From the IMG/VR virus record IMGVR_UViG_3300034374_007534, positions 1 through 60,382 of that record: DNA of 60,382 bases; one strand, given 5' to 3'. The notes under the pieces are model-generated. The model saw nothing but the letters and a program-made list of their open reading frames with translations. It had not been told where the DNA came from and did not search any database. Positions 4,633-59,252 of the stretch are shown here, in pieces; position 1 is the first letter of the stretch; each line of letters begins with the position of its first letter. Origin of the DNA: a virus. The position numbers and the translations under genes are program-made.

Positions 4633-5156
4633 TTGAAGAGTTTAAAGAATGGTTACTTGGATCTTTTAATAATAGAAGGCAAGCATTCTCTTATCCATCT
4701 CAATACTCCCAAATTAGTTTACGTCATGTTCTCTTAGATAATGGTATGATTTATGGAGAACAAAAATATACTGTTAGAGGAGAACCTCCTTATAGGCAAT
4801 TTGTTTTAGACTTTAAAGAAGTAAACGATAGAATTATTGTTTCAAGTTATAAAGTAAAAGATGGAAAAAAACATCTTGAATTTAAAAATCTAGATCAAAT
4901 TACTGAGGATCAATTAGAATTAAATGAAAATTGTGATTGTATTTTTATAAAAGAAAACAATCAGTATGTTGGTAGAATTATGGGATGTGATTGTATTGTA
5001 GAGAGAAATGGTAAAAAGTCTTTCTTATTTACTATGTCTGCATTAACAAAAACTAAGTATAAAGTCATTGATAGAGGTTATGATCCAGAGACTAAAAAAA
5101 TGGTTTGGGGATCTGAACATGGAATGTTTGAATTTGACAAGCAGAGTAAGACATAA
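4629..5156 (+). CDS. cpeT: CpeT/CpcT-type bilin lyase-like protein
   Basis: The protein has 175 residues, the usual length for phage CpeT. Recognisable segments are FNNRRQAFSYPSQYSQI near the N-terminus, the RQFVLDFKEV strand, a GCDCIVERNG segment and DRGYDPETKKMVWGSEHGMFEF at the C-terminus, matching the CpeT/CpcT barrel. Host family members attach or hand over phycobilins to phycobiliproteins; the phage version has been described as bilin-binding without clear lyase action. It directly follows ho1 (ATGA overlap), so bilin making and handling are paired. Its stop codon lies inside a late-promoter-like ATAAATA that serves the fibre gene downstream. Confidence 0.9.
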   Translation: MIEEFKEWLLGSFNNRRQAFSYPSQYSQISLRHVLLDNGMIYGEQKYTVRGEPPYRQFVLDFKEVNDRIIVSSYKVKDGKKHLEFKNLDQITEDQLELNENCDCIFIKENNQYVGRIMGCDCIVERNGKKSFLFTMSALTKTKYKVIDRGYDPETKKMVWGSEHGMFEFDKQSKT

Positions 5157-5159
5157 ATA
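5153..5159 (+). promoter_or_regulatory. T4-type late promoter candidate
   Basis: ATAAATA is followed by a second overlapping copy, and lies 47 bases before the start of the fibre gene at 5206. It matches the T4-like late promoter TATAAATA at seven of eight positions. It overlaps the cpeT stop codon. Confidence 0.55.
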
Positions 5160-5205
5160 AATATACGATCAATTTTGTCATGAAGTAACCCATAACTTTG
5201 ATTCA

Positions 5206-7224
5206 ATGGCAAAATACTTAAGTCAACTAAACAGAAAACTAAGAGTAGGTGTTGCCTCATATACTGACAATGAAACTGCTCTTCAGGTAACTGGTAATGT
5301 CGGTATAAAAACTTCAGAAGCTAAGTCAGACTTCCACGTTCAGGGAGATGGTTTAGTTTCTGGAGTTTTAAATGTTGATACTACTCTCAAATCAAATGAT
5401 ACTGTTGTCTCTGGAGTTAGTAGCTTTAGGGGAAAGGTATCTATTGGTAATACCACAGCATCTCCAGAAAGAGATTTAGATGTAAATGGTCCTACAATTT
5501 TTAGGGACTATGTAGATGTTAACAATTTTGTTTCTGCTGGAGAATACTATGGTCCATTGAGGTTTGGAGAACCTGATGGTGGATTTAAACCTGGAGCAGT
5601 TGAAATTGAGATTGACGATTTTACCAAAAATTCTATCAATGATATAAACTTTATTCTTGGTAAACTAGTTCCAAAACCACCAGCAACAGTTTTAAATGCA
5701 CCTTTGGATCTGGTTGGACTTGGAGTTGCAAGACTTTGTTCTGGATTTGCGTTTACAAATAATACTGTTGGTGTTTTTTCTCCTTCTGCTGGAACACAAT
5801 ACCCAAGAAATACCAGCAACTCAGTTACCTCTACTTGGTTAACTGAGTATGGTCCTGGAGATCAAGGCAATGTAAATGCAATGATCAACTTCAGTGTTGA
5901 GGGGCAAAGAATGATGACAAGTAACGATGTCATCAATCCAGACAATAGTATTACTAACGATGCTACTAGTGATGATGGAGTTTATGGTGCATTAGAAATC
6001 TTAAATGATAAAGATGCATTCTTCTCATCTAGAAATACTGGTATTGCATCGGATTTTTATGAGGTTTATGATTCTAGAATATTAAATGCCAATTCACCCA
6101 ATGGCTTTAATATGGCATATATTCAACATCAGGTAGATACAAATATCTATGAGTCTGAAAAATATTTGTACTATGAAGATCCGAGTGCAGTATCTGCACC
6201 AGTCCTAATCTCAACAACTCCAATAACTCCACCTTCACCAACATTTAATTATTCTTCTGGAATTCCTCATTATACACAAGCATCTAACAATGCATTCTTT
6301 TATGAGATCATTTGCCAGAATGCAACTGGTGATATGTATTCTAACAATACATTCTTAACTTCTTCTGGACAAACTACAGGATTCCAGAATGGTGGTAATA
6401 AATCTTATACAGATTTTACTAATGGAGTTAATCCACCAGTAAGAAATTTTGGAGTTGGTGTTGGAGTTACTTGTACAGTTTCACAGACACCTAGAGATCT
6501 TCATATTAGAGTAACTGCAGATAACCAAAAGTTTTCAAACTATACTGCATCAACTCCTTATGGATCTGATGTTGTACGTGCGACTATACCACAAATTGTA
6601 AATATTATGGGTACAACTGCTAGAACAAATGTGATTGATGAAGATAATATTTTAGTTCAAACTTTGGGAACTGGATCTGGAAATGCAGTTAGAGTAAATG
6701 CTGGATCTGCTGGGGATAATCCAACTCCTGTTTATACCACTTGGGTTGCTTCTAATACTATGCCAACCTACGAAGCTGTTGTTGTTGGTGGAGACTTGAA
6801 GCATGACCAAACAAATTATTCCACAGGTCATCTTCCAGTTGGACCAGATTACTCTGTAGGTAGAACAGGATCACAATATTTTCAAATGCAGTTTATAAGA
6901 TCTAATGTCTCTGAGTTTGAAATTGTAGTTAATGGTTCTTATACAGGATGTTGGATTTGTATGCCTGATAATCCTGCATGGACTTCATCTTTATCTGGTA
7001 CTAATGGTTGGGCAGATATGTTCCAAGCATACCGTGGTTCTGGTATTCCAACAACTGCTCTTCCTGGAGCAGCATTTGCTGGTAATATGACAGGATCTAC
7101 AGGAACCTTTACTGCAGTATTTGGAACTGAGTCATCGTCAAATGATGCTAACAATAGAATTCTAGTTAGATTTAAATTGAATTCTGGAAATCAGATCAAC
7201 ACTTTGTCATTTAGAAATACCTAA
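5206..7224 (+). CDS. Virion fibre-like structural protein (copy 1 of a duplicated pair)
   Basis: The protein has 672 residues. The N-terminus (MAKYLSQLNRKLRVGVASYT, then DNETALQVTGNVGI) is shared with the proteins at 8816 and 20259 and is probably a virion-anchoring module. Short beta-rich stretches follow, then a long domain from about residue 120 beginning FKPGAVEIEI and ILGKLVPKPPATVLNAP. The end is rich in Gly, Ser, Thr and Asn. From about residue 120 onward it aligns nearly block for block with the protein at 20259, including FLTSSGQTTGFQNGG and the C-terminal SGTNGWADMFQAYRG. It is probably a tail or baseplate fibre; enzymatic motifs are absent. The start ATG is preceded by a late-promoter candidate. 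Confidence 0.75.
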   Translation: MAKYLSQLNRKLRVGVASYTDNETALQVTGNVGIKTSEAKSDFHVQGDGLVSGVLNVDTTLKSNDTVVSGVSSFRGKVSIGNTTASPERDLDVNGPTIFRDYVDVNNFVSAGEYYGPLRFGEPDGGFKPGAVEIEIDDFTKNSINDINFILGKLVPKPPATVLNAPLDLVGLGVARLCSGFAFTNNTVGVFSPSAGTQYPRNTSNSVTSTWLTEYGPGDQGNVNAMINFSVEGQRMMTSNDVINPDNSITNDATSDDGVYGALEILNDKDAFFSSRNTGIASDFYEVYDSRILNANSPNGFNMAYIQHQVDTNIYESEKYLYYEDPSAVSAPVLISTTPITPPSPTFNYSSGIPHYTQASNNAFFYEIICQNATGDMYSNNTFLTSSGQTTGFQNGGNKSYTDFTNGVNPPVRNFGVGVGVTCTVSQTPRDLHIRVTADNQKFSNYTASTPYGSDVVRATIPQIVNIMGTTARTNVIDEDNILVQTLGTGSGNAVRVNAGSAGDNPTPVYTTWVASNTMPTYEAVVVGGDLKHDQTNYSTGHLPVGPDYSVGRTGSQYFQMQFIRSNVSEFEIVVNGSYTGCWICMPDNPAWTSSLSGTNGWADMFQAYRGSGIPTTALPGAAFAGNMTGSTGTFTAVFGTESSSNDANNRILVRFKLNSGNQINTLSFRNT

Positions 7225-49098: not shown

Positions 49099-49261
49099 TC
49101 CAAATGCACTTTATGAGGACATGTCACGTTTAAATGCTCTATATGAAGAACTTTGTTGGGATCATGAGGATGAACTAGTATTCACTCATGATGGTAGTAA
49201 AGTAATCATAGCAAACAAAACTAAAAATCCACACACTCAATTTACCTCTGGAGGAAAATAA
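49091..49261 (+). CDS. Small 56-residue protein, function unknown
   Basis: The sequence begins MPNPNALYEDMSRLNALYEE and continues LCWDHEDELVFTHDGSKVII; it ends HTQFTSGGK. The doubled NALYE(E/D) pattern and the DELVFTHDGSKV strand look like a small folded protein. Support comes from the 8-base overlap with the peroxiredoxin, the lack of any gap to the following hli, and the GGAGG in its own last codons that serves as the hli ribosome site. It is too short for many gene finders. I do not recognise the family. Confidence 0.6.
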   Translation: MPNPNALYEDMSRLNALYEELCWDHEDELVFTHDGSKVIIANKTKNPHTQFTSGGK

Positions 49262-49262
49262 A

Positions 49263-49382
49263 ATGAAATTTGGATTTACACCTGAAGCAGAAATTCTTAA
49301 TGCCCGTTTTGCAATGATTGGATTCATTGCTGGAGTTGGGTCTTATCTTACAACAGGACAATTGATTCCAGGCATTTGGTAA
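49263..49382 (+). CDS. hli: High-light-inducible protein (short Hli)
   Basis: The protein has 39 residues: an N-terminal MKFGFTPEAEILNARFAMIG and a following FIAGVGSYLTTGQLIPGIW. This is the common short phage/Prochlorococcus Hli with AE-x-LN-x-R-x-AMIGF in the helix and the TGQ-IPG end. Asn and Arg of the NAR triad replace the NGR of the other Hli. It starts 1 base behind the previous stop with a GGAGG Shine-Dalgarno 8 bases upstream. It would protect photosystem II or bind released chlorophyll. A terminator follows at 49407. Confidence 0.92.
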   Translation: MKFGFTPEAEILNARFAMIGFIAGVGSYLTTGQLIPGIW

Positions 49383-49406
49383 GTAATACTTATAGGTGAC
49401 TGGAGA

Positions 49407-49432
49407 AGAGGGGTTGACTACCCCTCTTTTTT
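49407..49432 (+). terminator. Rho-independent terminator after hli
   Basis: AGAGGGG (49407-49413) pairs with CCCCTCT (49421-49427) across TTGACTA and runs into six T (49427-49432). The loop contains a -35-like TTGACT. Confidence 0.85.
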
Positions 49433-49442
49433 GTGGTAAAGT
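49414..49442 (+). promoter_or_regulatory. Weak sigma70-type promoter inside the terminator
   Basis: TTGACT in the terminator loop (49414-49419), 17 bases and TAAAGT (49437-49442). It could start a message near 49449 for the lysozyme-like gene at 49498. The -10 is poor. Confidence 0.4.
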
Positions 49443-49497
49443 TAGTTCGCCTAAATAAGTCAACCAAAGAGTCGTACCCACTTTTGTGGTGATACGA

Positions 49498-50366: not shown

Positions 50367-50601
50367 CACAATTGCTTTGTTATCTGGTTTGGTATCGCTT
50401 AGTGTAGTTGGTAGTAGTTTTTATTTGTATCTTAATAAAGATACTCTTATTGAAGACGCAAGGGCAAAAGTAACTACTGAGGTTGCAACCGCTGTTAGAG
50501 AGGCACTGCCTGCCCTTGTAGAGTCTTTAACTCCAGATATACCAGATACTACTGGACCTGATATTCCTATTACTACTGGACCTGATATTCCAAACCTATG
50601 A
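50350..50601 (+). CDS. Single-pass membrane protein with TGPDIP repeat tail
   Basis: The protein has 83 residues. Residues about 5-27 are a membrane helix (INTIALLSGLVSLSVVGSSF). Then comes an amphipathic helical segment (DARAKVTTEVATAVREALPA) and a proline-rich tail with repeats of DIPDTTGP, DIPITTGP and DIPNL. The short repeated tail has nearly identical DNA (CCTGATATTCC separated by ACTACTGGA), so copy number could vary. It has a good AAGGA site before the ATG and overlaps the exported metalloprotease gene by 4 bases. A membrane-anchored partner of the lysozyme or protease is possible. Confidence 0.65.
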   Translation: MQSLINTIALLSGLVSLSVVGSSFYLYLNKDTLIEDARAKVTTEVATAVREALPALVESLTPDIPDTTGPDIPITTGPDIPNL

Positions 50602-51266
50602 AAAAATTTTTATTTTCCCTTATGGGAATGGCACTTATATCTTCTCCTGCATTTGCGGGTCAAGAAAAACTAATTAAAGAATTCTATAGTATGGACTCTA
50701 TGGGTTGTATGTTGCTTCGAGAATGCACCAAAGATGTCCAACAAGTCTTCAGTATCAATGATATTGCTAATGCTCATCCCAATAGTGATTACGATTTTGT
50801 TGCTGATGAGTTCAACAATATGCTCGTTTCCCTTAGTCAGGTCGGAGTTAACGTGTTTCTAGCAGACGAAAAATATTTTCCTGTTGGGCATCGTGGGGTT
50901 TATCATACAGTTGGCAATAACTTTTTTCTGAATAAGACATACATGCGTCTTCCTGGTGTTCTCATGACTGTTATGCGTCATGAAGGATGGCACGCTGCTC
51001 AAGATTGTATGGCAGGCACTATTAAAAATAGTATGATTGCCATCATCAAACCAGAGGAAGATGTTCCTAAGATCTGGCGTGAGATCACAGAAAAGACTTA
51101 TCCTAAGTTTGCTGTGCCCTGGGAAGCAGAAGCAATGTGGGCAGGTAAGACTGAAGGTATGACTGCTAAGGCATTGAAGTCTTGTGCTACTGGTACAATG
51201 TGGTCTGATTACAAACCAACACCACTGACTGAGAAGTGGTTACGTGAGGAAGGATTTATTAAATAA
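50598..51266 (+). CDS. Exported HEGWH zinc-metalloprotease-like protein
   Basis: The protein has 222 residues. The signal peptide MKKFLFSLMGMALISSPAFA is followed by an acidic N-terminal domain. The motif MRHEGWHAAQDC places H128-E129-x-x-H132 in HExxH form, typical of zinc metallopeptidases. A possible third ligand is E177 or E185 in VPWEAEAMWAGKTEGM, and cysteines (37, 43, 137, 195) suggest disulfides in the periplasm. It would cleave proteins or peptides outside the cytoplasm, or act as a metal-dependent hydrolase on the envelope. It follows lysozyme and membrane protein genes, so a lysis or envelope-remodelling job is plausible. The frame starts in an ATGA overlap. Confidence 0.65.
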   Translation: MKKFLFSLMGMALISSPAFAGQEKLIKEFYSMDSMGCMLLRECTKDVQQVFSINDIANAHPNSDYDFVADEFNNMLVSLSQVGVNVFLADEKYFPVGHRGVYHTVGNNFFLNKTYMRLPGVLMTVMRHEGWHAAQDCMAGTIKNSMIAIIKPEEDVPKIWREITEKTYPKFAVPWEAEAMWAGKTEGMTAKALKSCATGTMWSDYKPTPLTEKWLREEGFIK

Positions 51267-51604: not shown

Positions 51605-51943
51605 ATGAAGTCAATCATAAGATCAATGCTTCCCAAGAAAAAGAAAGATGAGCATGATGATCATGAATTTAATTGGCATGAAGAAGGAATATCCAGTTTA
51701 GTTAGACTAATTGTATTGGGTTGGACGGGTGCAATATTAACTCTTAATTATGTTTCTATTCCTGGAATTCCTCAACAAAAAATTGATCCAACTTTTATTG
51801 CCAGCGTTTTTACTGGGACTTTAGCTACTTTTGGAGTGACTCCATCCAAATCTAGTGGTGGCAATGGTAATGGCAATGGTAATGGTAATAATACTACTAA
51901 TGTAGTTGCTAAAAAAGAAGAGAAAGATTCTTCTAAAGGATAA
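51605..51943 (+). CDS. Two-helix membrane protein with GNGNGN linker
   Basis: The protein has 112 residues. A charged N-terminus (PKKKKDEHDDHEFNWHEE) is followed by two hydrophobic helices (about residues 29-51, ISSLVRLIVLGWTGAILTLN; and about 64-80, FIASVFTGTLATFGVTP). A GGNGNGNGNGN stretch and a Lys-rich tail follow. Two transmembrane segments, small size, charged ends and closeness to the exported lysozyme are consistent with a holin or spanin-like regulator, but there is no family match by eye. It is coupled to the next membrane protein by a TAATG overlap. Confidence 0.6.
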   Translation: MKSIIRSMLPKKKKDEHDDHEFNWHEEGISSLVRLIVLGWTGAILTLNYVSIPGIPQQKIDPTFIASVFTGTLATFGVTPSKSSGGNGNGNGNGNNTTNVVAKKEEKDSSKG

Positions 51944-52134
51944 TGGAAGTCGATATTAATTCTCCAGTTTGGAGTGTCATAATTCTTCTTTGTTGTGGAC
52001 TTGCTTTTACACTATATTGTGTTGTCTATATATTAAGAATGGCATATATGGAGATGCAAGATGGGAGCAATGACACCACCAAGCAGGAAGAGTTGCTACA
52101 ACTTCCGAGTAGTGGAGATCAACAGAGTGGTTGA
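51943..52134 (+). CDS. Small single-pass membrane protein
   Basis: The protein has 63 residues. Residues about 9-34 (VWSVIILLCCGLAFTLYCVV) form one long membrane helix with Cys at 17, 18 and 27; the C-terminus is polar (NDTTKQEELLQLPSSGDQQ). It overlaps the upstream gene by one base (TAATG) and the thermonuclease gene by 74 bases in another frame. With the protein at 51605 it forms a pair of small membrane proteins that could act in lysis. Confidence 0.6.
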   Translation: MEVDINSPVWSVIILLCCGLAFTLYCVVYILRMAYMEMQDGSNDTTKQEELLQLPSSGDQQSG

Positions 52135-52590: not shown

Positions 52591-52722
52591 ATGGCAGTTG
52601 GCGCTTATAAGAAAAAAGAAACCAAAAGAAATCCAGAGAAGACATTTTTTCTCTACGTGATCTTCTATCATTTTTTTGGTGCTATTGGTAATATTTTTAA
52701 AGGAGTATTTCACCACGACTAA
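52591..52722 (+). CDS. 43-residue hydrophobic protein
   Basis: The protein is MAVGAYKKKETKRNPEKTFF followed by LYVIFYHFFGAIGNIFKGVF and HHD. A basic N-terminus precedes a hydrophobic helix with aromatic residues. The TAA (52720-52722) overlaps the ATG of the next gene (TAATG), supporting translation. There is no Shine-Dalgarno sequence; the hairpin and T-run take its place. It is too short for many gene finders. It may be a membrane peptide; function unknown. Confidence 0.6.
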   Translation: MAVGAYKKKETKRNPEKTFFLYVIFYHFFGAIGNIFKGVFHHD

Positions 52723-53411
52723 TGCCAAACATTCCAGAGATTAAAACTCGGAAGCTTGATATACCAGAAGTTTCTACTTGGATATTTGAACCATCACAAT
52801 CTTTACCACCAATAGTTCCAGTAACTACTAACATTGGATTGCCAATAGTTGATATTCCTGGATGTGTGGAAGCTCATAGTAGCAAAAGTAAATCTAAGAC
52901 TATTCAGTCAGATGACCCAAATGGTGTTCTGACTTATTGTGATGCTGGTGTTCCTTCATTCAATCCAATAGAGTTTACTCCAGAGGAAGTGATACCAACA
53001 CGTCCTGCTAAACTTCCTCCATATAAAAAACCAGAGAAACCAAATCCTCCACAGCAGGTTTCTCTTCCAAAAATACCAGAAGTAAACACAGTAAATTGTT
53101 TACCCGATGAGACTTATAATGTTCAGTTAAGGAAATGTGAGAAGAACATTATAGAAGTTCCTTCCGAACCTGATATACCTTGGCATAAAGAATACTTACC
53201 AGAACCAGGAATCGTGATTCAAACATCAGTCATTGCCGCCACTGCTGCTGGTGCGGCGATATTCGCAAAACCCATTGCAGATATAGTCCTAAAAGCAGTT
53301 AAACCAATAGTTAAAAAATTGGTTAATAAGATTGCCAAGATGCGTGGTAAGAAAGAAGTAGTTAAGTCAGTCTTCGAAAGAAGAATGGAACAAAAGCATC
53401 TTAGGGGTTGA
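52722..53411 (+). CDS. Proline-rich virion-like protein with C-terminal hydrophobic helix
   Basis: The protein has 229 residues. The first 150 are rich in Pro and Ile-Pro-Glu motifs (IPEIKTRKLDIPEVSTW, KLPPYKKPEKPNPPQQ and LPKIPEVNTVNCLPDE) with four cysteines. Residues about 165-195 (VIQTSVIAATAAGAAIFAKP) are a hydrophobic helix, followed by a highly basic tail (VKKLVNKIAKMRGKKEVVKS). Such an arrangement fits a virion protein that spans or enters the membrane, or a basic tail that binds DNA. The end overlaps the minus-strand gene by 11 bases tail to tail. No family is recognised. Confidence 0.6.
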   Translation: MPNIPEIKTRKLDIPEVSTWIFEPSQSLPPIVPVTTNIGLPIVDIPGCVEAHSSKSKSKTIQSDDPNGVLTYCDAGVPSFNPIEFTPEEVIPTRPAKLPPYKKPEKPNPPQQVSLPKIPEVNTVNCLPDETYNVQLRKCEKNIIEVPSEPDIPWHKEYLPEPGIVIQTSVIAATAAGAAIFAKPIADIVLKAVKPIVKKLVNKIAKMRGKKEVVKSVFERRMEQKHLRG

Positions 53412-54063
53412 TTTTATGTATGTGTGGATGTTCGTGCTTAGGAACTGTAGTTACGTTCTGAACCACAACATCTGCACAGACTTTATAGTAAGGACTCTTA
53501 GGGTGGAAAGTAATACCCTGCTTCATTAATTCCCCACAGTTTTTAAGTCTTGCAATCTCAAAATCTAATCTCTTATTAGCAGTGAGTTGCTTCATCATTT
53601 CTATGTTAGCAGCAGCTGCTTCTTTACATTGTGCCTGAAGTTTTTTATCTAATGGTTCAGACCAAGTAATAGAGAATCCAACTCCAAGGTTGTAATTATC
53701 TTTTTGTCCTGTTCTGATAGGAACACGATACAACACATCACCAGGATTATCTGGTGCTCCATCTTCATCAAAGTCTCTCATATCATATACATTATCATTA
53801 TAATAAGGTTCCCAAGGTTTCTGAGCAGAGATGCTTCCAGTTACGTAAGGGGTGAAATTTCTAGTGGGACCTTGGCATTGGATTCCATTCCCGTATGTGT
53901 TGGTGATGTAAGGTCCTTGTAATACTTGTATCGCTTGATTTGTAACAGAACCACTACTATTAGCAACAGGAGCAGCGGTGGCGCTAACACCACCAACAGT
54001 TTCAGCCAAAGCTTTATGTGGCGATAGTGTTCCAAGAAGGATGACTCCTATTATTGACTGAAT
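53401..54063 (-). CDS. Exported protein with no standard start codon near its signal peptide
   Basis: The frame ends at TAA (53403-53401). A signal peptide-like stretch (IIGVILLGTLSPHKALAETV) precedes a mature region of about 200 residues with an acidic DMRDFDEDGAPDNPGD segment, NYNLGVGFSITW, a helix around AAAANIEMMKQL and a C-terminal CADVVVQNVT...HEHPHIHK tail. No ATG, GTG or TTG lies just before this signal. The first ATG is far upstream at 54216, inside the preceding gene in another frame; the next usable TTG (54009) lies after the hydrophobic core. I place the start at an ATT (54063) as the most reasonable non-AUG start; frameshifting from the upstream gene is another explanation. Function unknown. 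Confidence 0.55.
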   Translation of the reverse strand: MQSIIGVILLGTLSPHKALAETVGGVSATAAPVANSSGSVTNQAIQVLQGPYITNTYGNGIQCQGPTRNFTPYVTGSISAQKPWEPYYNDNVYDMRDFDEDGAPDNPGDVLYRVPIRTGQKDNYNLGVGFSITWSEPLDKKLQAQCKEAAAANIEMMKQLTANKRLDFEIARLKNCGELMKQGITFHPKSPYYKVCADVVVQNVTTVPKHEHPHIHKINP

Positions 54064-54467
54064 ATGGAAGTTGTATCTGTAATTGATTCTACTTCTGTGA
54101 CTCTTTGAATTATTGTTTGATTGCTTAAACCAGGACCACGGTAAGTTTCTGCAAACTGAAATGCTGCTCCTGGAGTTGTTTGTGTGAAGTTTACTTTGGT
54201 TCCTATGCCTGTCCATGTAGAATTCACTCCGTCTATGGTTGATGTAGAAGTAGATGTAGTTGGTGACAACGCACCGTTTGCAGTGATACCAGTCCCAGAT
54301 ACGGAATATTGATACCCAGTGTTATAGTCCATCGAATTGATGGTCTCTGTTATTTTTGACCTTGTTTCTGTGTGGCTCGTCATACTTCCTTGACTAAAGT
54401 TAGGAACCACAGGCACTGCATAAGCAGGAGACCCAAGCAGTGCCAGAATAACAAATATCCTTTTCAT
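54051..54467 (-). CDS. Exported Ser/Thr-rich beta protein (minus-strand block, gene 2)
   Basis: The protein has 138 residues. The signal peptide MKRIFVILALLGSPAYA is followed by Ser/Thr/Gly-rich beta sequence: TSHTETRSKITETINSMDYN, YSVSGTGITANGALSPTTST and FQFAETYRGPGLSNQT. The YSVSG(T/D) element is shared with the protein at 54467-54961 (SYSVSGDNIAV), indicating paralogy or a shared fold. The ATG overlaps the stop of the upstream gene (TAATG), so the two are coupled. It is likely periplasmic or surface exposed. Function unknown. Confidence 0.7.
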   Translation of the reverse strand: MKRIFVILALLGSPAYAVPVVPNFSQGSMTSHTETRSKITETINSMDYNTGYQYSVSGTGITANGALSPTTSTSTSTIDGVNSTWTGIGTKVNFTQTTPGAAFQFAETYRGPGLSNQTIIQRVTEVESITDTTSIFSQ

Positions 54468-54961
54468 TATCTTACAGACAGTTCTGTTACGAATTGACCT
54501 GTTGCTGAAGTACCAGCACCACCAGCAGTCAGAGTGATTGCTCCTGCGGTGTCGATGGTTCCAGCAAGTGCTCCAGCAGTTCCACCAACCTGTGTGGTAG
54601 ATTCTCCATAAAGATTTGGAGTATCAATCTGACCAGCAGAGAGTGCTGTCTGTGTAGTAACTACTGTGTCACCAATAAAAGTATTCTCAGCAAAACTAAA
54701 TGACTGACCGTCATTATTGATTGCATAAGAACCTGCACTTACAGTTGCAGGTGCCGTAGCAGATCCGCCTGTAAGACCACCAAGAGTAGTAACTGCGATG
54801 TTGTCTCCAGATACTGAGTAAGAAGAACCAAGTCTTGTAGACTGAACTGCTGGACCTTCTACTGTCAGTTGAACTGAAGAAGAAATTTTGCTAGTAAGAT
54901 CGGCATGTGCAGGTGCCGCCATCAGTAACATTCCACCAAGTAGAAGAGAAATTCTTTTCAT
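54467..54961 (-). CDS. Exported beta-rich protein (minus-strand block, gene 1)
   Basis: The protein has 164 residues. The signal peptide MKRISLLLGGMLLMAAPAHA is followed by beta repeats rich in Thr, Gly and Ala: SSVQLTVEGPAVQSTRLGSS, YSVSGDNIAVTTLGGLTGG, YAINNDGQSFSFAENTF and QVGGTAGALAGTIDTAGAIT. There are no cysteines. It starts the only minus-strand operon in the window; the genes run 54961 to 53401 and all three carry signal peptides. A late promoter-like AATAAATA (54991-54998, minus strand) lies 30 bases upstream. The family is unknown to me; a surface-exposed or fibril-like role is only a guess. Confidence 0.7.
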   Translation of the reverse strand: MKRISLLLGGMLLMAAPAHADLTSKISSSVQLTVEGPAVQSTRLGSSYSVSGDNIAVTTLGGLTGGSATAPATVSAGSYAINNDGQSFSFAENTFIGDTVVTTQTALSAGQIDTPNLYGESTTQVGGTAGALAGTIDTAGAITLTAGGAGTSATGQFVTELSVR

Positions 54962-54990: not shown

Positions 54991-54998
54991 TATTTATT
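54991..54998 (-). promoter_or_regulatory. Late promoter-like element for the minus-strand block
   Basis: On the minus strand the sequence reads tataataaatac, containing AATAAATA 30 bases before the ATG at 54961. It lies within a divergent promoter region with the + strand fibre gene at 55076. Confidence 0.45.
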
Positions 54999-55060: not shown

Positions 55061-55075
55061 GAATTTTTTATATTG

Positions 55076-57049
55076 ATGGGCACTTTTAAACGTTTTAATA
55101 GGTCTTCAAATTATTTGGACAAAAAAATCCAAGAATTAAATGAGGATATGAAAAAGAATGGTGTCCATTTAAAAGAGGACACTCAAAATTTTGATGCTGT
55201 TTTTAATTGGCGAGATCAATTTGAACAATATCAAAAAAAAGAAGAACAAAATGTAGATTTAGTTGAAGACATTATTGTAGAAGTTAGGGAAAAAAATAGG
55301 CATCTCTCATCTGTAGAGGCATCTATAAAAGAAGCAAAATTAAATGAGGCAAATGATATTTTTAATGAGTTATATGGTCGCCAGGTAGAAGGAGTTGCTA
55401 TAGGGGTAATTAAGAATCATATTGGTGAGATTGAAACTTTAAAAGAAGATATTATTTTAGAGATACAAAAAGCAAAAGATTTAAGACTTCTTGAAACTAG
55501 ATTAGATGAACTAGATTCTAGATATAAGATTCTGTCTGAAAAAGTTGCTAAAGGATCACAAAAAAAAGTTAGTGCAGATAGTCCTGTAACATTCTCTCAA
55601 CTTCAAGATCATTATCAAAAACTTGTTGGTAAACTCCAACAAGAACTTGCCATGGTTGGAAGTGGTGGTGGTGAAGTAAACTTACAATACCTTGATGACA
55701 TTGTTGGTATTGCCACTAATGCTAGTGCATATGATGGTAAGTATTTAAAATATGATCATTCAATTCAAAGATTTGTTTTCTCAACAGTGACAACTGGATT
55801 GTCAACTGAGACTCAGACATTAAACAATGTATTAGCACTTGGTAATACCTCTTCTTTAGGAATTAGTGTTGGTGTTGTAACTGCAACTTCTTTTGTTGGT
55901 GATGGTTCTGGATTAACTAATCTCCCTTCTGGTGGGGCTGGAGTTGGAACTAATGGAAGTATAAACACCACTGGAATTATTACTGCAGCATCATTTGTTG
56001 GTGATGGTTCTACTTTATCTGGTGTTGTTACTTCAGTATCTGGAGGTGCTGGAATTAATGTAAGTCAATCTACTGGTAGTATTATTATTACTGCTACTGG
56101 TGGATCAAGTTCTGGAATTGGTTATTCTGATCTCTCTGTATATGTTGGATCTCCTGGAATAAGTTCCTTATCTTATGATAGTGACTTTGGTATTTTTACA
56201 TACATACCACCAAGTTTTTCTGGATATGCAACAACTGAATCTATTGTAGGATTTACAACTGCTGGAGATCTTGTAGGTTTCTCCACTGCTGGAGATCTAG
56301 TTGGATTCTCTACCGCTGGAGATCTTGTGGGGTTCTCCACTGCTGGAGATCTTGTAGGGTTTACAACTGCTGGTGACCTTGTAGGGTTCTCTACCGCTGG
56401 AGATTTAGTTGGATTCTCTACTGCTGGAGATCTAGTTGGATTCTCTACCGCTGGAGATCTTGTAGGGTTTACAACTGCTGGTGACCTTGTAGGATTCTCT
56501 ACTGCTGGAGATCTAGTTGGATTCTCTACTGCTGGAGATCTTGTAGGGTTTACAACTGCTGGTGACCTTGTAGGGTTTGTTACAACTGGAGATGTAACTG
56601 TAATTGGAATTGATACTAGCGGTACTTCTAATTTTACTAACGTTAATATTAGTGGAATCGTAACCTTTAGTTCTAGTGCTCTGTTTGGTGGCGGAACACA
56701 AGAAGCATTTGATACTTTGAATAGTTCTACGGGAACGGTATCTCATGATTGTTCAACTGGACATATTTTTTACCACACTAATCCTTCGGCAAATTGGACA
56801 GCAAATCTCACTAATCTTACACTTAGTGCTGAGTATGGAACTACAATCACAATTGTTGTAAATCAAAATGATCCTGCATTTATGCCAACATCACTGCAAA
56901 TAGGTGGTGTATTGCAATCAATTAAGTGGCAGGGCAATTCAATACCATCTGGAACTGCATCTGGAATTGATGTTGTCTCCTTTAGTATTCTGAATGATGG
57001 TGGAACATATGTTGTAATGGGTCAAAGTGTTTCGTTTGGTGGAGTCTAA
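55076..57049 (+). CDS. Virion fibre-like protein with coiled coil and GFSTAGDLV repeats
   Basis: The protein has 657 residues from ATG 55076 (a TTG just before is in frame). Residues 1-190 are mostly coiled coil (KIQELNEDMKKNGVHLKEDT, then EIETLKEDIILEIQKAKDLR). About 200-390 is a Gly/Ser beta region with fibre repeats (LSISVGVVTATSFVGDGSGL-type text: VGVVTATSFVGDGSGLTNLP; TGIITAASFVGDGSTLSGVV). About 391-507 is twelve perfect-length 9-residue repeats of VGF(S/T)TAGDL plus one degenerate copy. The C-terminus is beta-rich (TAEYGTTITIVVNQNDPAF-like). It resembles tail-fibre and baseplate fibre proteins of T4-like cyanophages. It stops with a TAATG overlap into the lectin-like gene. Confidence 0.75.
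   Translation: MGTFKRFNRSSNYLDKKIQELNEDMKKNGVHLKEDTQNFDAVFNWRDQFEQYQKKEEQNVDLVEDIIVEVREKNRHLSSVEASIKEAKLNEANDIFNELYGRQVEGVAIGVIKNHIGEIETLKEDIILEIQKAKDLRLLETRLDELDSRYKILSEKVAKGSQKKVSADSPVTFSQLQDHYQKLVGKLQQELAMVGSGGGEVNLQYLDDIVGIATNASAYDGKYLKYDHSIQRFVFSTVTTGLSTETQTLNNVLALGNTSSLGISVGVVTATSFVGDGSGLTNLPSGGAGVGTNGSINTTGIITAASFVGDGSTLSGVVTSVSGGAGINVSQSTGSIIITATGGSSSGIGYSDLSVYVGSPGISSLSYDSDFGIFTYIPPSFSGYATTESIVGFTTAGDLVGFSTAGDLVGFSTAGDLVGFSTAGDLVGFTTAGDLVGFSTAGDLVGFSTAGDLVGFSTAGDLVGFTTAGDLVGFSTAGDLVGFSTAGDLVGFTTAGDLVGFVTTGDVTVIGIDTSGTSNFTNVNISGIVTFSSSALFGGGTQEAFDTLNSSTGTVSHDCSTGHIFYHTNPSANWTANLTNLTLSAEYGTTITIVVNQNDPAFMPTSLQIGGVLQSIKWQGNSIPSGTASGIDVVSFSILNDGGTYVVMGQSVSFGGV
56246..56596 (+). repeat. 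27-bp tandem repeats (VGF(S/T)TAGDL)
   Basis: Twelve contiguous 27-base units (56246-56569) and one degenerate unit (to 56596) encode VGFTTAGDL or VGFSTAGDL. The order of T and S units suggests partial higher-order copies of three units. Near-identical DNA makes the array prone to gain or loss. Confidence 0.9.
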
Positions 57050-58169: not shown

Positions 58170-59252
58170 ATGTCTTCATCTACTCTTTCACGTCAACAAC
58201 AATCGAATACTTGGGAACAGTTTTGCAATTGGGTAACCAGCACTGACAATCGTCTGTATGTTGGTTGGTTCGGAGTCCTCATGATTCCTTGCCTGCTCGC
58301 CGCTACTACTTGTTTCATCATTGCCTTTATTGGTGCTCCCCCTGTGGACATCGACGGCATCCGTGAACCCGTTGCTGGTTCGCTCATGTATGGTAACAAC
58401 ATCATCTCTGGTGCTGTTATCCCTAGCTCCAATGCTATTGGTCTCCACTTCTATCCCATCTGGGAAGCAGCATCTCTTGATGAATGGCTCTATAACGGCG
58501 GTCCTTTCCAACTGGTAGTCTTCCACTTCCTGATCGGCATCTATGCATACATGGGACGTGAGTGGGAACTTTCTTACCGTCTGGGTATGCGTCCATGGAT
58601 CTGTGTAGCATATTCTGCTCCAGTTGCTGCTGCGAGTGCAGTGTTCCTGGTCTATCCTTTTGGTCAAGGTTCTTTCTCCGATGCTATGCCCCTGGGTATC
58701 AGTGGCACCTTTAACTACATGCTTGTCTTCCAAGCAGAGCACAACATCCTGATGCACCCCTTCCACATGCTTGGAGTTGCTGGTGTCTTTGGTGGTTCTC
58801 TGTTCAGTGCTATGCACGGTTCTCTGGTTACTTCCTCGCTGGTTCGTGAAACCACTGAGAACGAGTCACAGAACTATGGTTACAAGTTCGGTCAAGAAGA
58901 AGAGACCTACAACATCGTTGCTGCTCATGGTTACTTCGGTCGCCTGATCTTCCAATACGCTTCCTTCAACAACTCCCGTTCGCTGCACTTCTTCCTCGCA
59001 GCATGGCCTGTTGTCGGTATCTGGTTCACTGCACTGGGCGTTAGCACCATGGCATTCAACCTGAACGGATTCAACTTCAACCAGTCCATCATTGATGGTC
59101 AAGGTCGTGTTATTAACACCTGGGCTGATGTTCTGAACCGTGCTGGTCTGGGCATGGAGGTGATGCACGAGCGCAACGCCCACAATTTTCCTCTGGATCT
59201 CGCAGCAGCATCTACTACTCCTGTAGCAATGACTGCTCCTTCCATTGGTTGA
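58170..59252 (+). CDS. psbA: Photosystem II D1 protein
   Basis: The protein has 360 residues, complete and without an intron. Numbering is shifted by one from the standard: tyrosine Z is Y162, and the manganese ligands D171, E190, H333, E334, D343 and A345 are all present, as are H199, H216 and H273. The residue corresponding to D1-130 is Glu (GREWELSYR), as in the high-light D1 forms. The PEST-like loop [15 protein letters not shown] and the C-terminal processing site after A345 are normal. Phage D1 replaces damaged host D1 and keeps photosynthesis running during infection. It has two upstream promoter candidates and a strong terminator. Codon use is more GC-rich than in its neighbours. Confidence 0.98.

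Follow-up and report, generated by a model that had tools for sequence, protein, structure and literature searches.

Three exported minus-strand proteins as probable components of a late lysis module of cyanophages

The minus-strand genes g3, g2 and g1 (Table 1) encode exported proteins of a probably late module that is widespread among cyanophages and is most likely a lysis (cell-exit) system. They lie in a window of 60,382 nucleotides, the whole stretch of viral DNA analysed here, which is a cyanophage fragment with psbA at 58170-59252. An earlier note on this DNA had described a minus-strand operon of three exported proteins. The open reading frames and their coordinates were confirmed, the order on the minus strand being g3, g2 and g1 with the g2 start abutting the g3 stop. 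That these were the only minus-strand genes in 60 kb was essentially right, apart from two short minus-strand ORFs of at least 60 aa without a comparable plus-strand ORF over them, 5078-5260 (60 aa) and 49242-49481 (79 aa). The assignment to unknown families also held: profile searches placed g3 in PHROG 564, g2 in PHROG 650 and g1 in PHROGs 848/1755, none of which has a known function, and g2 is a member of DUF6322 (PF19847) with 139.5 bits against a curated cut-off of 30.6. The memberships in DUF6322 and, for a plus-strand neighbour, in DUF6450 were above the curated cut-offs, and Pfam gives neither family a function. Searches of the trio against Pfam, PHROGs, PADLOC and PDB sequences returned families of unknown function or nothing. 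Some records name g3 'gp167' or 'OMP1'. The literature searched on cyanophage holins or spanins, on exported genes of the opposite strand and on 'gp165/gp166' yielded no functional report.

Table 1. Features of the g3-g2-g1 locus in the window
Feature	Positions	Strand	Description
ATAAATA motif	54991-54997	-	T4-type late-promoter-like; 36 nt upstream of g3 ATG
g3	54467-54961	-	164 aa, exported, beta-rich; phrog_564; supported by ORF, PHROG match and cross-lineage alignment
g3 mature part	about 54467-54901	-
g2	54051-54467	-	138 aa, exported; phrog_650, Pfam DUF6322 (PF19847)
g1	53401-54216	-	271 aa; phrog_848/1755; ~50-residue basic leader, hydrophobic segment, AxA site A71/E72, mature domain
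g1 mature domain	54003-53404	-	200 aa, 4 invariant Cys
Double-coding overlap	54051-54216	-	g2 3' end in frame 0, g1 5' end in -1 frame
Proline-rich protein	52722-53411	+	C-terminal TM, basic tail; phrog_570, gp164-like; convergent with g1
Small single-TM protein	51943-52134	+	phrog_814; between DUF6450 and gp164-like gene; putative member
DUF6450 protein	51605-51943	+	PF20048; phrog_721 family in relatives; small, two-TM, holin-like
HEGWH-motif protein	50598-51266	+	exported; phrog_591; DUF6450 neighbour; tentative member

A signal-like hydrophobic segment followed by an AxA-type site was present in all three products: APAHA/DLT in g3, SPAYA/VPV in g2 and HKALA/ETV in g1. In a crude regex and hydropathy count the hydrophobic h-region preceded the mature part in 152 of 157 g1 and 159 of 160 g2 relatives, and an AxA-like site followed the leader and hydrophobic segment in 155 of the 157 g1 sequences. 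The earlier description of a signal peptide followed by beta-rich sequence thus stood with regard to export, but the signal segment of g1 is not N-terminal; it is internal and follows about 50 basic residues encoded within g2 in the -1 frame. The YSVSG element reported for two of the products was found in g3 and g2. It is common to both because their families are related (hhalign probability 91%, E 1e-6). In the AlphaFold2 models, mature g1 (pLDDT 69) shows beta strands leading into a helix of 42 residues, and in g2 (pLDDT 79) two strands of 24-25 residues surround a small beta domain. Foldseek retrieved no significant match for either model among solved structures (threshold E ≤ 0.001), the best g2 match being weak, a phage tail protein (8egr, E 1e-3, TM 0.17). 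Resemblances of g1 and g2 to oligomeric beta-pores and phage tail rings were weak and non-significant, and no lysenin- or aerolysin-like oligomeric beta-pore protein matched the models significantly. No function was drawn from the folds, since g1 and g2 lack a significant structure match. A curli-like or surface-fibre reading was unsupported.

The reading frame of g1 opens within g2, 166 nt before the latter's stop, with an ATG that overlies a conserved tryptophan codon of g2 (xxA TGG). From relatives, 92 distinct g2 sequences were collected and stop codons were counted in the g1 (-1) frame; the test set comprised 80 non-redundant sequences of standard layout, with 500 synonymous-codon shuffles as null. 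The overlap contained 0 stops in 4321 codon steps, while 166.3 ± 10.1 were expected (minimum 140). Upstream of the ATG this frame was ordinary (330 stops, 315.5 expected), as was the remaining frame within the overlap (259 stops, 241.8 expected). The base preceding the conserved tryptophan codon was an A in 80 of 80 sequences, across four different residues, and this A creates the g1 ATG. Synonymous codon diversity was lower in the overlap (0.64 versus 0.79, p = 1.6e-4). The absence of stops where 166 were expected indicates that the overlap is truly double-coding.

Phages with another layout bear on the origin of the g1 start. At locus L079, g1 begins about 220 nt past g2 with an ordinary start (MKFLKKRVNLVLLASLGIGLLSPTKVLA/NS), and g1 of P-SCSP1u has a short ATG signal peptide and overlaps g2 slightly. 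In L079 and L014 stops reappear in the former overlap. Production of g1 without an own start, as a frameshift fusion with g2, would suit the observation that most phages have no ATG between the g2 stop and the hydrophobic segment of g1. However, the g1 frame is free of stops exactly from the in-frame ATG onward and has many just upstream, an unlinked g1 carries an ordinary ATG signal peptide (L079, P-SCSP1u), and the former overlap regains stops, so that a fusion is highly improbable. The in-frame ATG over the tryptophan codon was preferred to a programmed frameshift and to a non-AUG start, both of which were rejected. Judged from these reading frames, the basic leader of about 50 residues with which g1 is exported appears as a by-product of out-of-frame reading through g2. 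The overlap accounts for the many annotated genomes in which g1 is lacking or has been given a wrong start: most of it is unannotated in the records of S-RSM4 and S-WAM2, its start is placed within g2 in Syn9 and S-RIM8 and downstream of the signal segment in S-TIM61 and P-SSP7. At locus L008 (3659-4600), the P-SSP6 record annotates the overlapping frame as a single protein of 313 aa and leaves the real g2 unannotated.

The motif upstream of g3 recurs among relatives. Within the 100 nt preceding g3, 52 of 58 loci contained a TAAATA core, against 9.9 obtained from shuffles, and 28 contained CTAAATA, against 1.4 expected. Copies of ATAAATA were concentrated 28-36 nt before the g3 start, with one at 46 nt. 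The cyanophage late promoter NATAAATA has been reported for S-PM2 and Syn9 (PMC2984593). Given this T4-type motif, the trio is likely transcribed late in infection.

Matches to g1, g2 and g3 were obtained by tblastn (E ≤ 1e-5) in 439, 407 and 53 phage records, respectively; the search undercounts the short and divergent g3, and reading of the loci revealed a wider presence. All matched records were labelled as cyanophage, Synechococcus or Prochlorococcus phage, or marine or uncultured virus. The genes g1 and g2 occur in T4-like Kyanoviridae, S-TIM5, S-TIM61, the siphovirus P-HS2 and T7-like podoviruses including P-SSP7 and P-SCSP1u, while g3 occurs in the T4-like, S-TIM5-like and siphovirus lineages. 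The question whether the three always travel together is answered in part: g2 accompanied g1 in all records read, but g3 was absent from the T7-like phages examined, which have g2 and g1 only. Independent occurrence of the genes without signal peptides, which would have spoken against a common exported system, was looked for in relatives and not found. A host origin was rejected, as the 16 loci in prokaryote assemblies look, by contig context, like phage contigs binned into MAGs, SAGs or isolates. The assembly of a Nonlabens isolate contains a cyanophage-like contig of 188 kb (L097, NZ_RMVE01000006), probably a contamination. The breadth of distribution bears on a further explanation, that these are secreted or oligomeric beta proteins which end up decorating the tail or capsid of the virion. 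The late promoter motif and the tail protein as best, if weak, g2 match would agree with such a role in the virion or its assembly, but Sec signal peptides and the occurrence of these genes in myoviruses, siphoviruses and podoviruses, whose virions are unrelated, make it very unlikely; the S-TIM5 record, a weak indication from annotation labels, designates nearby genes as virion structural and not the trio.

The locus has been seen before. Sullivan et al. (2010, PMC3037559) described a hypothetical five-gene cluster, T4-GC 218/219/234/235/237, reported a cluster including 234, 235 and 237 in all their cyanomyoviruses except S-PM2, and proposed a functional link between the genes, which a plasmid-stability gene might have mobilised; they assigned no function. 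By the annotation of P-SSM2, 234 is the proline-rich TM protein, 235 is g1 and 237 is g3. The text read there mentions neither the g1/g2 overlap nor the export, the late-promoter motif, the T7-like and siphovirus members or the lysis link.

The earlier suggestion of a self-contained system had to be abandoned, as the trio has partners on the adjacent plus strand. The gene of the proline-rich TM protein is convergent with g1, their 3' ends overlapping by 11 nt (53401-53411), and this arrangement recurs in S-TIM5, P-HS2 and P-SCSP1u. Such a proline-rich protein with C-terminal TM goes with the trio in most lineages, as phrog_570 in myoviruses and P-HS2 and as phrog_9426 in podoviruses. DUF6450, found in 428 records, also goes with the trio; it was encoded on the strand opposite to g1 in 64 of the 71 marine loci and in all 68 loci of freshwater type. 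Its homologue in P-SSP7, gp43, has two transmembrane segments (TMHMM), and profile searches gave no match of DUF6450 to any holin family. In many T4-like relatives the exported HEGWH protein adjoins the trio. The HExxH-type motif was conserved in 58 of 59 loci, phrog_591 was present in 366 phage records, and the gene shared the strand of DUF6450 in 53 of 57 loci. From its motif and position the protein is possibly a metallopeptidase of the same module. That phrog_591 simply replaces the endolysin was rejected, because 24 freshwater loci contain both. On the other side of the trio, at 55073-57049 on the plus strand, lies a tail-fibre-like gene with about a dozen repeats of the GFSTAGDLV type. 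The module is retained in the genome of P-SCSP1u with its 38 genes, where its proteins and partners were the sole ones seen with TM or signal segments besides a T7 gp14-like virion protein.

Freshwater relatives showed an association with endolysins. A C39/lysozyme endolysin gene could be located in 43 of the 80 loci of freshwater type, and in all 43, which come from one query and may largely represent one clade, it lay upstream of DUF6450 on the same strand, with g3-g2-g1 convergent. The gap to DUF6450 was 19-43 nt in 23 of these 43 loci. In DSL-LC03 the order is endolysin, endolysin, outer membrane beta-barrel protein, DUF6450, proline-rich TM protein and the convergent g1/g2/g3. The beta-barrel protein, with a signal-like N-terminus, stands between endolysin and DUF6450 in DSL-LC03 and its relatives (L123, 8038-9687). 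Two further layouts, on marine MAG contigs (L095, L099), had an endolysin match less than 1 kb from DUF6450. In the marine window, no endolysin was found beside the module. The endolysin of S-PM2 type (phrog_3617/PF00959) was absent from 12 of 12 module-bearing phages tested, with weak C39-like matches in S-RIM14 and S-ShM2. Conversely, g1 was absent from 10 of 12 endolysin-bearing cyanophages of T4-like, T7-like and siphovirus affiliation, the other two being S-CAM7 and DSL-LC03; as loci and records were picked by similarity to the module or the endolysin and many share ancestry, this mutual exclusion is a pattern and not a random-sample statistic. It is also imperfect: DSL-LC02 and DSL-LC03 have both module and endolysin, and MA10 has kept DUF6450. 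In S-CAM7 (NC_031927, 31563-31790) a g1-like stretch (E 1e-7) is broken by a stop codon, a possible relic of the module.

S-PM2 lacks g1, g2, DUF6450 and phrog_570 altogether; a single weak g2-profile match (E 0.01) falls inside a frame of 3048 codons. It has instead a C39-peptidase and lysozyme endolysin, an exported RlpA-like DPBB protein and phrog_3316. The RlpA-like gene (L115, 7894-8685; S-PM2 107894-108685) is followed by that of the TM/coiled protein phrog_3316 with a lipobox-like cysteine, and proteins resembling this pair, a spanin-like candidate, are present beside the endolysins of S-SRM01, ACG-2014f, S-CAM7 and MA10. This S-PM2-type cassette of cyanophages without the module probably does the same job, but consists of unrelated proteins including a recognisable endolysin. 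Among T7-like phages, S-SBP1 has tail fibre ... DUF6450-g2-g1, a TM/coiled-coil gene and the terminase small subunit, and S-CBP1 has tail fibre ... endolysin followed by the two homologous right-flank genes (54% and 80% identity to S-SBP1). By this gene order, the endolysin in S-CBP1 evidently occupies the slot held by the module in S-SBP1.

Linkage and reciprocal distribution weigh on two other roles in the envelope. Superinfection exclusion is usually set up early in infection. Exported proteins that coat or alter the outer membrane and thereby block adsorption or injection by other cyanophages would be expected to be host-specific, diverse, surface-like and beta-rich, common to unrelated phages of the same hosts and dispensable for some, all of which applies to the trio. 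Such surface remodelling is nevertheless rather unlikely in view of the late-type motif before g3, the physical link to endolysin genes and the reciprocal distribution of module and endolysin; PADLOC gave no match, though its library is not aimed at exclusion proteins. A module that keeps the envelope working or opens nutrient pores over a long latent period appears quite unlikely: it stands among the auxiliary metabolic genes psbA, hli and petF in several T4-like genomes, and exported beta proteins with a non-significant likeness to oligomeric beta-pores would suit it, but its retention in the small P-SCSP1u genome, the endolysin linkage in freshwater relatives and the lack of any transporter family match argue against maintenance or transport.

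We consider it moderately probable, from the genomic association, that the trio is the secreted part of a late cyanophage lysis module, acting at the outer membrane or in the periplasm. The usual signature of a lysis cassette is an endolysin adjoining a small two-TM protein. Freshwater-type loci and DSL-LC03 display this linkage, with the endolysin beside DUF6450, and the secreted proteins would then fit the remaining step, disruption of the outer membrane. Late in infection DUF6450 would act as holin or membrane trigger, and a muralytic enzyme would cut the peptidoglycan, the C39/lysozyme endolysin in freshwater-type phages and, as a candidate, the exported HEGWH protein in marine phages. The secreted proteins g1 and g2, the latter with its relative g3, would assemble in periplasm or outer membrane and breach it, the step performed by spanins in other phages. 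The module may represent a host-specific solution for the picocyanobacterial envelope. A review of T4-like cyanophages mentions no holin (PMC2984593). Several points count against lysis: the trio has neither sequence nor significant fold likeness to any holin, endolysin or spanin, an endolysin was not found in the 12 module-bearing phages searched for phrog_3617/PF00959, the exclusion between module and endolysin is imperfect, and gene neighbourhood does not by itself establish a mechanism. The earlier proposal of an accessory surface or periplasmic structure is supported in so far as the proteins would act in the infected cell's envelope, but the gene context favours lysis over a surface appendage.

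The trio shares several traits with spanin genes. Like Rz/Rz1 of lambda and 18.5/18.7 of T7, g1 and g2 encode small, probably late envelope proteins with genes overlapping in different frames; like the T7 lysis genes, the module of T7-like cyanophages stands between tail fibre and terminase; and like two-component spanin genes it adjoins the endolysin in freshwater relatives. In contrast to two-component spanins, g1-g3 have no lipobox lipoprotein (0 of 160 g2; 4 of 157 g1 by crude regex, with AxA-type ends instead), no N-terminal anchor with coiled coil and no sequence similarity, while possessing cleavable-type signal peptides and two related beta proteins (g2, g3). The inner-membrane subunit of spanins has an uncleaved N-terminal TM and a periplasmic coiled coil, and g1 has no such architecture, although its predicted structure includes the 42-residue helix. 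The missing lipobox and the cleavable signals set g1-g3 apart from spanins in both descent and architecture; by analogy, they may do the spanins' job nonetheless. A wider proposal, which we put forward tentatively and regard as doubtful, is that most marine cyanophages leave the cell without known holin, endolysin or spanin: g1-g3, perhaps as oligomeric beta-barrel pore, would breach the envelope together with DUF6450 and the HEGWH peptidase, and the set would have been swapped with the classical endolysin cassette, in either direction, several times independently.

By lysing Synechococcus and Prochlorococcus, these phages move a substantial part of the carbon in the ocean. An endolysin was not recognisable in the module-bearing phages tested, and the gene set described here provides named, testable candidates for their lysis. 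The set is common to T4-like, S-TIM5-like, T7-like and siphovirus cyanophages and is joined to endolysin genes in the freshwater relatives.
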